The notes beneath the pieces were generated by a model. The model worked only from the letters and a program-made list of their open reading frames with translations. It ran no database searches and was not told the origin of the DNA. From an uncultured Planctomyces sp. (GTDB lineage: Bacteria > Planctomycetota > Planctomycetia > Planctomycetales > Planctomycetaceae), in assembly GCA_937904325.1 (NCBI GenBank), contig CALGTK010000441.1, positions 1 to 32,361 of the forward strand: a stretch of DNA of 32,361 nucleotides, read 5' to 3'. This document shows, piece after piece, positions 6,236-21,147 of this stretch. The stretch's first letter is position 1, and the number at the start of each line of letters is the position of its first letter. The position numbers and the translations under genes were made by a program.

Positions 6236-7502
6236 ATGTCTACTCACTCCGGGGCGTTAGACGTCAAAGCTGTTCGTCGCGACTTCCCCATTCTGAATCG
6301 TTCGCTCGAGCAAGGCAGGCATCGCAAAGGCATGCTGCCGGTTTTTCTCGACAGCGCGGCCAGTGCCCAGAAGCCGTCATGCGTCATTGAGAAAGAACGT
6401 GAAGTTGAGGAGCAATACTTCGCCAACGCCTACCGAGGTGTCTATTACTTCGGCGCAAAAATCGACGACGAACTGGAAGCGTCGCGCGAACGAGTCCGAA
6501 AACTTCTCAACGCCGAATCGTCCAGCGAAATCGCATTCACATCGGGCACTACAATGTCCATCAATATTGTGGCACGAGCCTGGGGCGCGAAGTTTCTGCA
6601 CCCAGGCGATGAAGTCCTCATTACCGAAATGGAGCATCACGCCAACATCGTCCCATGGCAGATGATTTGCCAGGAGCGAGGTGCAACGCTCCGCTGGCTG
6701 CCACTTACCGATGACCTGCAACTCGACCTGTCACAACTCGACGAATACCTCACAAAAAAAAACGAAACTCGTCGCTGTAACTTCGATGTCAAACGTACTC
6801 GGCACGATCAACCCCGTTCACGAAATTTCCCGAAAGGCTCACGCCGTTGGCGCAAAAATTCTTGTCGACGCCGCGCAGTCTACCCCTCACAGACAGATCG
6901 ACGTCAGAACCGGCGACGGCGGCGAAATCGACTTCCTGGTACTTTCCGGCCACAAACTTTTCGGCCCTACCGGCATTGGCGTGCTTTACGGTCGCAAAGA
7001 ACTGCTCCGGGAAATGAATCCGTTTATGGGCGGCGGTCACATGATCAGCCGAGTCTTCAAAGATCATTCCAACTGGGCAGACCCACCAGCAAAGTTCGAA
7101 GCTGGCACGATCCCAATAGTCCAGGCAATCGCGATGGGAACCGCGATCGACTACGTCGAAGGCCTCGGCTTCGCAAACATCCACGATTACGAAGCCGCTC
7201 TGCTCCGGTACGCCACCAAAAAACTTGAATCCATCCCCGGTCTCAAAATCTATGGTCCGCCCTGTGAAGCTAAAGGTCCGATTTGCAGCTTCACAATCGA
7301 TGGAGTCTCGTGCGAAGACCTGGCTAACCTGCTGGACATCAAAGGCGTCTTCGTCCGCCACGGCCATCACTGCACCATGCCGCTGCACGACAAACTCGTC
7401 ATCTCCGCGTCAGTCCGTGCCAGCTTCGCCATGTACAACACTCACGATGAGGTCGACCACCTCATCGAAGCTGTCAAATTCGCACTGGAACGACTGACTT
7501 AA
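6236..7502 (+). CDS. sufS: SufS-type cysteine desulfurase, frame broken at an A9 run
   Basis: SufS is a PLP enzyme that takes sulfur from cysteine and hands it to SufE. Reading starts at ATG 6236, runs in one frame to the A9 tract at 6754-6762, and continues one frame over to TAA 7500-7502. With eight A the product would be 421 residues, the normal length. In that reconstruction the N-terminal half has DSAASAQKP and EMEHHANIVPW, and the C-terminal half has VDAAQSTPH, the Schiff-base Lys240 in SGHKLFGPTG and the persulfide Cys379 in RHGHHCTMPLHD. Everything except the one extra base looks functional. Explanations are a sequencing error, transcriptional slippage, phase variation or a recent mutation. 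Confidence 0.9.
6754..6762 (+). repeat. Homopolymer A9 at the sufS frame break
   Basis: Nine consecutive A follow the codons for Tyr-Leu in sufS. Upstream reading is ACA AAA AAA AAC; the downstream conserved frame reads AAA ACG AAA CTC. Removing one A joins the two halves exactly, giving LTKKTKLVAV. Runs of this length are prone to slippage by polymerases and to miscounting by sequencers. Confidence 0.9.
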
Positions 7503-17481: not shown

Positions 17482-20400
17482 ATGTCATCCCTGAAAACCG
17501 AACAACTTCTTCAAAAGGATGTCTCGGATGCGGACATCGAGGTACTGCTTTCACCAGTAGGCTTTGCGGACTGGAAAACGGCCCACACACGACTACTCGA
17601 AATCAGCACGACTAACTCTAGACAAAAAGCACTAACTGCAGCATTACCGATGCTGCTGGCTGCTCTGGAAGAATCGGCCAACCCCGACAGTTCTGTCCTC
17701 AACCTTGCACGCTTCATTCAGTCAGCACTCGATCCGGCTCGAACCCTTAAATTCCTCGCCGACAATCCACGCGCAATCGAGATCCTCGTCAAGCTCTTCG
17801 TCAACAGCCAGTTTCTGACCGAGATCCTCCTACAAAATCCCGAGTATCTTGAACGTCTGACCCAGCACAAACGCATCGCCGATTTCAAAAGTCGCGAGGA
17901 GTTCCGTCATGAGGCCGAACAGGCATTGGCTACTGTCGTAGATTCTCAGCAGAAGTTTAAAACCCTTCGCACTTACCAGCACTGGGAGCTTCTCCGCATC
18001 AGCGCATGCGACAACTTTGGCCTGCTCGATCTGAAGTCGGTCACGATACAGCTTTCGCTTCTGGCCGACGCGATTGTCCAGACAGCTCTTTCGATTGTAA
18101 GCACGGACCTTGCCGTCAAAGTTGACGAATTCGTCGTGCTGGCATTCGGTAAACTGGGCGGTGAGGAGCTTAACTACAGCTCCGACATCGACCTCGTGTT
18201 CGTGTCGCGAGACAATGCAGCCCGCTACTGGGAAGCCGGACAGCGACTCATTCGTGGCCTTACAGACTCGGTATCAGGCAGTTTTCTTTACCGAGTCGAC
18301 ATGCGGCTGCGACCGTGGGGGCACTCCGGACCACTTGTCACCACGGCAGATAGCTTCGTCGACTACTTAGCCAACAATGCCGAACTATGGGAGAAGCAGG
18401 CTTTGCTCAAAGCTCGTCCGATTGCGGGCACGCTTTCGATCGGTTTCGAATTCCTCAAACGGGCCGATCATCTTCTGTTTGAAGCATCCGTCGACGCCGT
18501 ACGGGAAAACATTCGAACGATGAAGGCGAAGATCGAGTCTGGGCTCAAGAAGAAAGGCAGGGGATTCGGCGAAGTCAAATCCGGTCAGGGATCAATCCGC
18601 GACATCGAGTTCGTCACCCAGTTCCTGCAGCTCCGCCACGGCCACGAAAACCGGCACGTACGCAGCATAGGCACACTCGACGGTCTGGTGCGTCTGGCAG
18701 ATCTGGATTTCCTGCGAGCTGACGAATTCCGACAACTGACTACTGCTTACCTGTTGCTTAGAAAAATCGAGCACACCCTCCAACTGCTCCACTACAAGCA
18801 AGTCCATACTCTACCTAAAGACGAACGAGAACTCGCGTACCTGGCACGCCGTCTCGACTTTCCAAACGCTGACGCCTTCCTTGCCAGCTACAGCCAGCAT
18901 TGCACGGAAGTCCGCACGATCTTTTTGCGATATATCGAAAACACAGAATCGAAAGAGACCATCGAAACATCGACCAGCACGCCAACATCCAGCAGGCGTC
19001 CGCGCCACTCCGACGCGATGGAGCCGTCCTATGCCAAAGTATTCTCAGGAGACGAAATACTAAGCCACGCCAGAATTCTGGACGCACTTAGCCCCGAACA
19101 ACCGATTCTCGTTGAAGCCGAACCTGCATTGGGCAATCGAGTTCAACTGACTGTTTGCGGCTACGATCAAACCGGCGATCTGGCAATGGTCTGCGGGCTT
19201 CTCTTTGCACACGGATTCGACATCGTCAGCGGCAACGCCTTCACGACTGATCATATTCTGGAAGACTCGTCCGCCCAGTCAGGCCCCGACCACCTGCCAA
19301 CTGCCGCCCAGAAATTTGTCGACGTCTTTACGCTGAGCCCGCCGGGTGACAACACACCGACTGAAATCTGGCAGAACTATCAGGCCGACCTGACTGCTCT
19401 TGTCACGCTCGTTCGAGACGACCAGCTTCGTAAGGCTCAAGCACGACTCGTCGAAGAAGTCGCACAGGCATTCGCCGACGCATCGGCCACGCCGGGAATA
19501 CTCCTGCCGATCGACATCGACATCGACAACGACCAGTCCGACCGCTTTACCGTGCTGAAAATCATGGCTGAAGACACAAGAGGTTTCATCTACGAACTGA
19601 CCAGCTCGCTCACGCTACTGGGCTACGACATCCACCGCGTAACTCTAACTTCACTGGGCGACCGAGCTTTCGACACGTTGTTCATCGCCCGGCAGGACGG
19701 CACAAAAATCTTGCGTCCGGAAATGCAGTCTCGACTTCGAGCGGCTGTCGTTCTTGTCAAACACTTCACACACCTGCTGCCGCAGTCTCCGAACCCGCAG
19801 AACGCCCTGCTCCACTTTGGACAACTGCTGGAACGGCTGTTCGAACGTCCAGACTGGGCCGAAGAACTCGCATCACTCGACCGTCGAGAAGTTCTGGAGT
19901 CACTGGCAAAACTTCTCGGCGTTAGCGACTTCCTCTGGGAAGATTTTCTCAGGCTGCAACACGACAATCTGTTTCCTGTCCTGCGCGACGTTGAGGGCGT
20001 GACGGCTACTCGTACTCGCGAACAACTGGAGACCGACCTGGCTGAACAACTCAGGAACATCCGATCAAACAAGGAAAAACGTAACTGCCTCAACGATTTT
20101 AAGGATCGAGAGATGTTTCGAGTCGACATGCGACACATCGCTGGCCATATCTGCGAATTCGGCCAGTTCTCTGAAGAATTAACCGACGTCGCAGAAGCGG
20201 TGACATCACAGGCACTCAACATCAGCGTCGATCAGCTCACGGCCCGACACGGTCGTCCGTTCATCGCAGACCAAGGCATAAGGCATTCAGAAAACAAACT
20301 AGCAGTGTTTGCACTCGGCAAAGCCGGCGGTCGAGAACTCGGATTCGCATCCGACATTGAGCTGATGTTCGTTTATGAAGCGGAAGGACATACGAACGGC

Positions 20401-21147
20401 GACAATCCAATCACCGCGTCGGAGTTCTACATCCACCTTGTCGAGTCTTTCACTGGAACTATTCTGGCTCGCCGCAAGGGAATCTTTGAAATCGATCTTC
20501 GCCTGAGACCGTACGGTAACGCAGGACCACTGGCAGTTTCGCTCGACGCCTTTGAAACCTACTTCACTCCTTGTGGTCCTGCCTGGCCCTACGAACGGCA
20601 GTCCCTCGTCAGAATGCGACCGATCGCTGGCGACGAAGAATTCGGCCAGCGAGTCATTCAACTCCGAGACAAACTCGTTTACACAGACACTCCATTCGAC
20701 ATAAACGCTCTTCGAGCCATGCGTGAACGTCAACTCCGCCAACTCGTTCAACCAGGAGTGTGGAACGCTAAACTGAGTCCCGGCGGTCTGGTTGACTGCG
20801 AGTACCTGGTTCAGGCTCTCCAGATCACCCACGGCAACGCGTTACCGAAACTTCGGCAAAGCGGGACGTCCGATGCCCTGACTGCTCTTCACAAATACGA
20901 GATCATTACCGACGAGCAATTCGCAGGCCTACTCAGTAGCTATGTCTTCCTGCGCCGCCTGATCGACGCTCTCCGGATGGTTCGCGGTGATGCCCGAGAC
21001 CTTGCGATTCCCGCCCTCGAAACAGAAGAATTCGCTTACCTCGCACGTCGTCTCAATTACGGAAACCACACCAGACAGTTGCAAACTGACATCGCCGAAA
21101 CAACCGATGCCGTTGCCAAACTATTGGAGTCGCTCTTGCCCGGCTGA
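17482..21147 (+). CDS. glnE: Glutamine synthetase adenylyltransferase with internal ACT-type domains
   Basis: GlnE adds AMP to glutamine synthetase and removes it, setting nitrogen assimilation. Both nucleotidyltransferase halves are present: the first with AFGKLGGEELNYSSDIDLVF (residues 221-240, Asp235/Asp237) and YRVDMRLRPWGHSGPL; the second with ALGKAGGRELGFASDIELMF (about 943-963, Asp958/Glu960) and FEIDLRLRPYGNAGPL. At 1221 residues it is about 275 longer than E. coli GlnE (946). The excess lies between the halves, about residues 490-770, and contains two segments resembling the ACT domains of GlnD: VQLTVCGYDQTGDLAMVCGL (from 554) and FTVLKIMAEDTRGFIYELTS (from 689). ACT domains bind small ligands, glutamine in GlnD, so an internal sensor is inferred. 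No glnA, glnB or glnD lies in the window. Confidence 0.92.
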   Translation: MSSLKTEQLLQKDVSDADIEVLLSPVGFADWKTAHTRLLEISTTNSRQKALTAALPMLLAALEESANPDSSVLNLARFIQSALDPARTLKFLADNPRAIEILVKLFVNSQFLTEILLQNPEYLERLTQHKRIADFKSREEFRHEAEQALATVVDSQQKFKTLRTYQHWELLRISACDNFGLLDLKSVTIQLSLLADAIVQTALSIVSTDLAVKVDEFVVLAFGKLGGEELNYSSDIDLVFVSRDNAARYWEAGQRLIRGLTDSVSGSFLYRVDMRLRPWGHSGPLVTTADSFVDYLANNAELWEKQALLKARPIAGTLSIGFEFLKRADHLLFEASVDAVRENIRTMKAKIESGLKKKGRGFGEVKSGQGSIRDIEFVTQFLQLRHGHENRHVRSIGTLDGLVRLADLDFLRADEFRQLTTAYLLLRKIEHTLQLLHYKQVHTLPKDERELAYLARRLDFPNADAFLASYSQHCTEVRTIFLRYIENTESKETIETSTSTPTSSRRPRHSDAMEPSYAKVFSGDEILSHARILDALSPEQPILVEAEPALGNRVQLTVCGYDQTGDLAMVCGLLFAHGFDIVSGNAFTTDHILEDSSAQSGPDHLPTAAQKFVDVFTLSPPGDNTPTEIWQNYQADLTALVTLVRDDQLRKAQARLVEEVAQAFADASATPGILLPIDIDIDNDQSDRFTVLKIMAEDTRGFIYELTSSLTLLGYDIHRVTLTSLGDRAFDTLFIARQDGTKILRPEMQSRLRAAVVLVKHFTHLLPQSPNPQNALLHFGQLLERLFERPDWAEELASLDRREVLESLAKLLGVSDFLWEDFLRLQHDNLFPVLRDVEGVTATRTREQLETDLAEQLRNIRSNKEKRNCLNDFKDREMFRVDMRHIAGHICEFGQFSEELTDVAEAVTSQALNISVDQLTARHGRPFIADQGIRHSENKLAVFALGKAGGRELGFASDIELMFVYEAEGHTNGDNPITASEFYIHLVESFTGTILARRKGIFEIDLRLRPYGNAGPLAVSLDAFETYFTPCGPAWPYERQSLVRMRPIAGDEEFGQRVIQLRDKLVYTDTPFDINALRAMRERQLRQLVQPGVWNAKLSPGGLVDCEYLVQALQITHGNALPKLRQSGTSDALTALHKYEIITDEQFAGLLSSYVFLRRLIDALRMVRGDARDLAIPALETEEFAYLARRLNYGNHTRQLQTDIAETTDAVAKLLESLLPG

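Follow-up and report, generated by a model that had tools for sequence, protein, structure and literature searches.

The window analysed here is a stretch of 32,361 nucleotides from an uncultured Planctomyces sp. (contig CALGTK010000441.1, positions 1 to 32,361, forward strand). It carries a glnE gene whose product has a tandem ACT module in its middle, between the two catalytic halves. An initial annotation, made from the letters alone, had described a GlnE of 1221 residues with two ACT-like segments, one from residue 554 and one from residue 689; the units predicted in the present work start close to these positions, at about residues 542 and 678. The features of the gene are as follows.

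17482..21147, + strand: glnE, GlnE with a central tandem ACT module; 1221 amino acids, ATG start (Pfam and NCBIfam matches)
17524..18939, + strand: N-terminal catalytic half (deadenylylation, AR side, by homology), residues 15-486, with D235-x-D237 (Pfam; match to 1v4a)
19003..19083, + strand: helices ahead of ACT unit 1, about residues 508-534, within the part aligned to the GlnD C-terminal module (profile-profile comparison, predicted structure)
19105..19416, + strand: ACT unit 1, residues 542-645, with Gly565 in the β1-α1 loop (insert alignment, hhalign, AlphaFold2)
19513..19785, + strand: ACT unit 2, residues 678-768, with Gly701 in the β1-α1 loop (Pfam, insert alignment, hhalign, AlphaFold2)
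19819..21144, + strand: C-terminal catalytic half (adenylylation, AT side, by homology), residues 780-1221 (Pfam; structure match)
20353..20361, + strand: D958-x-E960, nucleotidyltransferase motif of the C-half, with Glu replacing the second Asp (alignments)

A GlnD-type tandem ACT module inside GlnE

Two stretches each of PF03710 (GlnE) and PF08335 (GlnD_UR_UTase) were matched by Pfam and represent the two catalytic halves. Both nucleotidyltransferase domains are present and each is followed by a helical domain, as in members of the GlnE family, and the NCBIfam GlnE model PRK11072 covers the protein with 549 bits (cut-off 487). In the middle region, the GlnD model PRK05092 matches residues 489-757 (profile positions 675-920 of 940; expectation value (E) 7.6e-25) and the GlnD model TIGR01693 matches residues 495-756 (E 4.7e-20). 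The scores of the GlnD models are far under their own cut-offs, and the HD domain expected of a GlnD is not among the Pfam matches of the protein. Judged by these profiles, the protein bears a GlnD-type module, yet it is not a GlnD. The ACT-like family PF24931 was found at residues 679-754 of the full protein with 27.4 bits against a cut-off of 27, so that domain databases may already show an ACT match here. When the insert alone was searched, PF24931 again passed its cut-off of 27 (29.6 bits), while PF01842 (ACT) gave 21.2 bits and did not reach its own, also 27. ACT unit 1 escaped Pfam and was detected with the GlnD models, in the profile-profile comparison to GlnD and in the predicted structure.

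For the profile-profile comparison, an alignment of 60 inserts (the middle region of the window GlnE and of 59 loci from named genomes) was set against a profile of the GlnD C-terminus from the genome of the window and 10 related genomes. The two were aligned by hhalign over 234 columns with 99.1% probability, E 9.7e-19 and 19% identity, and the homology extends to the stretch ahead of the ACT pair. Among the 60 inserts 14 columns are invariant. The Gly of the β1-α1 loop is present in at least 90% of the sequences in unit 1 and in all 60 in unit 2 (Gly565 and Gly701 in the window protein); PF24931 matches 56 of the inserts and PF01842 39 (E 0.001 or better). A scan of named genomes gave 553 relatives, of which the best 80 were analysed, and models of ACT1, ACT2 and the C-half matched in all 80 of these loci.

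The structure of the insert was predicted by AlphaFold2 from the 60-sequence alignment with a mean predicted local distance difference test score (pLDDT) of 86.5 and a predicted template modelling score (pTM) of 0.84. The model consists of two β-β-α-β-β-α units, with a low-confidence loop within unit 1; the strand ahead of β1 would replace the last ACT strand in the units. In a Foldseek search of the PDB, chains of the large glutamate dehydrogenase came out on top (7jsr_A, E 3.6e-6), and the lower matches included SerB2, plant ACT-like domains and threonine dehydratase amid weakly scoring unrelated folds. With VIA-align, aspartate kinase ranked first (Z 10.9, root-mean-square deviation (rmsd) 3.4, 147 residues aligned) and threonine deaminase second (Z 9.1, rmsd 3.1, 138 aligned), with a further threonine deaminase/dehydratase entry at Z 8.6; CASTOR2 (Z 8.0, rmsd 4.1, 156 aligned) ranked below the two threonine dehydratase entries, and most other rows had Z of 8.0 or less, values under 8 being middling. 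The matches of the two programs thus include the ACT regulatory domains of aspartate kinase, threonine deaminase, CASTOR and large glutamate dehydrogenase, and together with the model they place the insert in the ACT fold. GlnD is absent from the Foldseek and VIA-align matches listed. A sequence search of the PDB with the insert gave no significant match, the best being a phosphoserine phosphatase at E 0.52, a search with the insert profile gave no matches, and one with the GlnD C-terminal profile gave just two calmodulins (E 0.037 and 0.081). Since these searches yielded no solved GlnD, there was no GlnD ligand site for comparison.

It might be argued that this is an ordinary GlnE with a superficial or degenerate resemblance to ACT, a view with which the GlnE score above the cut-off and the Pfam ACT score below it would agree. 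Such a superficial resemblance was rejected on the GlnD-model matches, the hhalign alignment, the AlphaFold2 fold and the structural matches of VIA-align, and the Foldseek matches, the PF24931 matches in 56 of the 60 inserts, the invariant columns and the 80 of 80 loci speak against it as well; moreover, ordinary GlnE proteins have little between their halves (about 20 residues in locus L027 and 27 in L029). We regard this explanation as hardly credible, and chance resemblance is dismissed because ACT1, ACT2 and the C-half are matched in all 80 loci and 14 columns are invariant. These results confirm that the insert is a real tandem ACT module of GlnD type between the catalytic halves. The ACT segments of the initial annotation, and the likeness to GlnD to which it had pointed, were in this way borne out in the profiles (the GlnD models, PF24931 and hhalign, with PF01842 staying under its cut-off) and in the two ACT units of the model.

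As to the ligand, the ACT domains of GlnD may regulate this enzyme via glutamine binding, and a Gly at the GlnD β1-α1 turn corresponds in position to the serine site of PGDH (PMC3173338). Because the equivalent Gly is present in both units of the window GlnE, glutamine binding is favoured; because the GlnD pair is regarded as a glutamine sensor (PMC3173338), the same module may have the same role here. By analogy, we infer that glutamine may be bound by the ACT pair. Alternatively, the pair might sense another metabolite, for example another amino acid, and put glutamine synthetase under a nitrogen signal other than glutamine. Among the structural matches of the model there are indeed chains whose structures contain isoleucine, arginine, serine or lysine, the identity to GlnD is just 19%, and unit 1 is unrecognised by Pfam. 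We nevertheless consider this rather unlikely, because GlnD models and profiles are, apart from PF24931, what the insert matched or aligned with among the families scanned, and the target of the enzyme makes glutamine. PF24931 is an ACR9-like family, and the plant ACR proteins are discussed as possible amino-acid sensors like GlnD (PMC3173338); its presence in most of the inserts does not decide the ligand.

Catalytic halves and presumed target

The N-half matches the structure 1v4a at residues 106-485 (E 1.7e-49). A model of the full protein (1200 residues) had a mean pLDDT of 86.8 and a pTM of 0.55; its TM score, normalised by target, was 0.82 against 1v4a and 0.75 against 3k7d. Asp or Glu residues stand at the expected positions in both halves, namely D235 and D237 in the N-half and D958 and E960 in the C-half, together with D273 and D1005 in R-L-R-P motifs, and we take them to be the catalytic carboxylates. 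The catalytic-motif residues of both halves are invariant across 61 aligned ACT-GlnE. The D-x-E motif is present in 20 of 21 ACT-type C-halves (the exception being L022), versus D-x-D in 12 of 12 ordinary planctomycete C-halves, and in a tree of 39 rows the 21 ACT-type C-halves form a single clade with 100/100 support, separate from the ordinary C-halves and from the N-halves. The change from D-x-D to D-x-E is conservative. Glu is still suitable for metal binding in the nucleotidyltransferase superfamily, and we take the C-half with D-x-E to be probably active.

The target of ACT-GlnE, in both adenylylation and deadenylylation, is presumed to be glutamine synthetase. A glnA with at least 53% identity to that of the window's genome was found in 18 of the 80 named loci, mostly as the directly adjoining gene; none of the 18 is planctomycete. 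The flanks were 6 kb at most and often ended by contig ends, so that 18 is a lower bound. In every GlnA sequence read, from the window's genome and from the loci, the target position is Tyr, and its context is D-x-x-x-Y-[DEG]-L; the one departure from this context is a second, distant GlnA paralogue in L117. The window's genome also contains a second, short glutamine synthetase of 337 amino acids, by eye seemingly of a different type (L009:1003-2016, - strand).

Distribution of ACT-GlnE, GlnD and PII

ACT-GlnE is a widespread GlnE variant across several bacterial phyla. By record title, the basis of all group names given here for these loci, the best 80 loci belong to planctomycetes, to Chloroflexi/Anaerolineae/Ardenticatenia/Caldilineales, to two Calditrichota and to one Spirochaetales, and the N-half lies in the same frame in these loci save L080, L082 and L101, which are cut by contig ends, and L044 and L094, which are split. 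Closest to the window gene is L044:4874-8658 (84%), whose N-half is divided over two overlapping frames. Within the window's phylum 246 genomes were surveyed and 104 matched the window protein; among the matches listed in these 104, 18 were assigned to the ACT type and 12 ordinary GlnE were read in detail. All 13 sampled genomes of the window's family, its own included, align through the middle region, and an ACT-type middle is also found in G200 and G004. In three further planctomycetes (G077, G037 and G111) the frame found contains ACT-ACT-C-half alone, hereafter the half-type:

L039:2715-5009, L040:2615-4858 and L041:1133-4186: stand-alone ACT-ACT-half-GlnE, in the planctomycete genomes G077, G037 and G111

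At L039 a glnA lies about 2.4 kb from the half-type gene. The L041 protein has an additional C-terminal stretch of about 140 residues.

Among the 80 named loci, 47 had their genomes searched for GlnD and PII. Because the curated cut-off for GlnD is strict (in 14 control genomes it was passed in 2, with matches in 5), GlnD was judged absent when no full-length match appeared. GlnD scored over the cut-off in 17 of the 47, all planctomycete, and the Spirochaetales carrier has a 381-bit match across most of the model; no GlnD match was found in 29 (27 Chloroflexota and 2 Calditrichota). Of these 29 genomes, 7 have a PII over 60 bits, 5 a weak one (22-28 bits) and 17 none, i.e. 22 are without canonical PII. 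A second sample comprised 150 genomes of the class of L076, requested at completeness 90; the assignment to Anaerolineae rests on the name of L076, 'Anaerolineales bacterium', and the two sets overlap in at least 14 genomes. GlnD over the cut-off was found in 0 of the 150, and the best GlnD matches listed reach at most 82 bits and span the HD, ACT or transferase part alone. GlnE is present in 38; 36 reach the ACT region and all 36 are of the ACT type, while G294 and G425 end before it. PII in these 36 is over 60 bits in 8, weaker (21-40 bits) in 8 and not found in 20, which leaves 28 of 36 without canonical PII. Five PII sequences of GlnD-less Chloroflexota were read (L151, L153, L154, L155 and L157): the T-loop is altered, and residue 51 is Tyr but outside RGAEY. 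In two from Calditrichota (L156 and L158) Gly or Asp is aligned, at low identity, with the uridylylation tyrosine, and one of these matches contains a stop.

These data bear on another possibility, that the ACT pair serves for docking or assembly without a small ligand, by spacing the halves, dimerising the enzyme, or docking on PII or glutamine synthetase. ACT folds commonly pair as structural units, and the half-type retains both units without an AR half. In E. coli GlnE the same site is taken by a central regulatory domain that joins the halves (PMC12409994). On the other hand, both units conserve the Gly of the ligand loop, and docking of PII fails for the carriers without canonical PII in the two overlapping sets (22/29 and 28/36). 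A purely structural role seems improbable to us.

Two observations may be added. In L006:908-7593 of the window's genome, genes for an ammonium transporter and a sigma-54-type activator (by eye) lie ahead of two PII genes and glnD. At 6236-7502 of the window, a cysteine-desulfurase-like gene (SufS, by eye) extends over two overlapping frames, 6236-7228 and 6681-7502, which suggests a frameshift or an assembly error.

Proposed glutamine sensing and comparison with known systems

The double cycle of PII, GlnD and GlnE that controls glutamine synthetase is a textbook case from E. coli. We consider it probable that the window gene encodes a GlnE whose GlnD-type tandem ACT module senses glutamine, or a close amino acid, and is coupled via a helix to the direction of activity. 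The ACT pair would bind the ligand, and binding would move the long helix that runs from ACT2 to the C-half. High glutamine would then lead to adenylylation, with glutamine synthetase off, and low glutamine to deadenylylation. The pair may supply the main input in Anaerolineae, for which the searches gave no GlnD and usually no canonical PII, and a second, direct input alongside the PII/GlnD cascade in the family of the window; in the half-type, adenylylation may be under glutamine control without a deadenylylase of its own. A bolder proposal, which we put forward tentatively and hold somewhat less likely to be right than wrong, is that ACT-GlnE is a self-contained glutamine switch that replaces the GlnD-PII-GlnE double cycle in Anaerolineae and some planctomycetes, the half-type being a glutamine-gated one-way adenylyltransferase.

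A number of points weigh against glutamine sensing by the module as set out above. In the full protein PF01842 reaches only 15.9 bits at residues 690-744 (cut-off 27), and the pTM of the full model leaves its domain placement unsure. In other proteins, ACT units have amino acids other than glutamine as ligands or pair just structurally. In the window, glnE does not adjoin glnA. The window's genome encodes a GlnD of 957 amino acids (548.5 bits) with its own ACT pair and, in one cluster with it, two PII proteins, both with the RGAEY loop. All 15 planctomycetes with full-length ACT-GlnE in one search keep GlnD (the 17 named-locus planctomycetes with GlnD overlap these in at least two genomes). 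There are also 34 planctomycetes with ordinary GlnE, 12 of them read in detail and 22 classed from match ends, no GlnD-ACT match being seen in the GlnE frames of the latter. GlnD is over the cut-off in 15 of the 34 and full-length below it in 3 (427-509 bits), 18 in all; the other 16 are without full GlnD, one having a 186-bit fragment, so that ACT is not required for a GlnE without GlnD. Finally, E. coli GlnE responds to the glutamine level as well as to PII (PMC6490700).

For these reasons two stronger statements were discarded: that ACT was gained when GlnD was lost, which is too strong given the 16 of 34 and the 15 of 15, and that PII/GlnD is replaced in the window's organism, which has its own GlnD and two PII genes. 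The lesser need for PII/GlnD suggested by the initial annotation fits many Chloroflexota, without GlnD and mostly without canonical PII, but not the organism in which it was proposed. The survey of planctomycetes that it called for was similarly divided, with GlnD in 15 of 15 full-length carriers and 0 of 3 half-type genomes, and PII over the cut-off in 16 of the 17 carriers searched (missing in G037). Its idea of two regulatory layers merged in one polypeptide was overstated, as ordinary GlnE is already regulated by glutamine (PMC6490700), E. coli GlnE has a central regulatory domain (PMC12409994), and ACT-less GlnE occurs in planctomycetes lacking GlnD. Neither the glutamine response nor the central regulator is therefore new. 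A GlnD-type ACT pair between the halves of GlnE was not found described in the open-licence PMC papers searched, and may be in print elsewhere.

Genomes for which the searches gave no GlnD, and in most cases no canonical PII, harbour a GlnE that carries a putative GlnD-type sensor of its own; this would be a natural, simpler version of the circuit. It makes directly testable the question whether PII is necessary for setting the direction of GlnE, and it offers a concrete candidate for the regulation of glutamine synthetase in Anaerolineae. In an engineered diazotroph, GlnE alleles consisting of the C-terminal half only drove one-way adenylylation (PMC9249168); one-way halves are already in use in ammonium-excretion engineering, for which ACT-GlnE is a possible part.

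Compared with known systems, the window protein shares with the E. coli-type GlnE (1v4a, 3k7d) the two homologous nucleotidyltransferase halves, each with a helical domain, the D-x-D of the N-half, the predicted fold of the halves and the presumed target, glutamine synthetase with its tyrosine. It differs in the tandem ACT between the halves, in the D-x-E of the C-half and in its length, which exceeds the 946 positions of the model for that type by 275 residues. With the C-terminal ACT pair of GlnD it has in common the homologous module and the stretch ahead of it; unlike GlnD, it has no HD match, its module is central and followed by a second nucleotidyltransferase half, and a separate GlnD is present in the genome. 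The best Foldseek match of the insert is L-GDH180 (7jsr, 9hv0), presumably an enzyme of the glutamate pathway with an ACT-like region and a catalytic domain different from that of GlnE; in VIA-align, the match to 9hv0 (Z 7.9, 128 residues) extends over residues 14-170 of the model, which comprise the first unit and the surrounding helices. The plant ACR proteins (ACR9, ACR11) likewise have GlnD-like ACT repeats, and PF24931 is named after ACR9; to our knowledge they have no catalytic domains. They are ACT-repeat proteins of plants (PMC3173338), and in this they differ from the GlnE of the window, in which the repeats lie between two catalytic halves.

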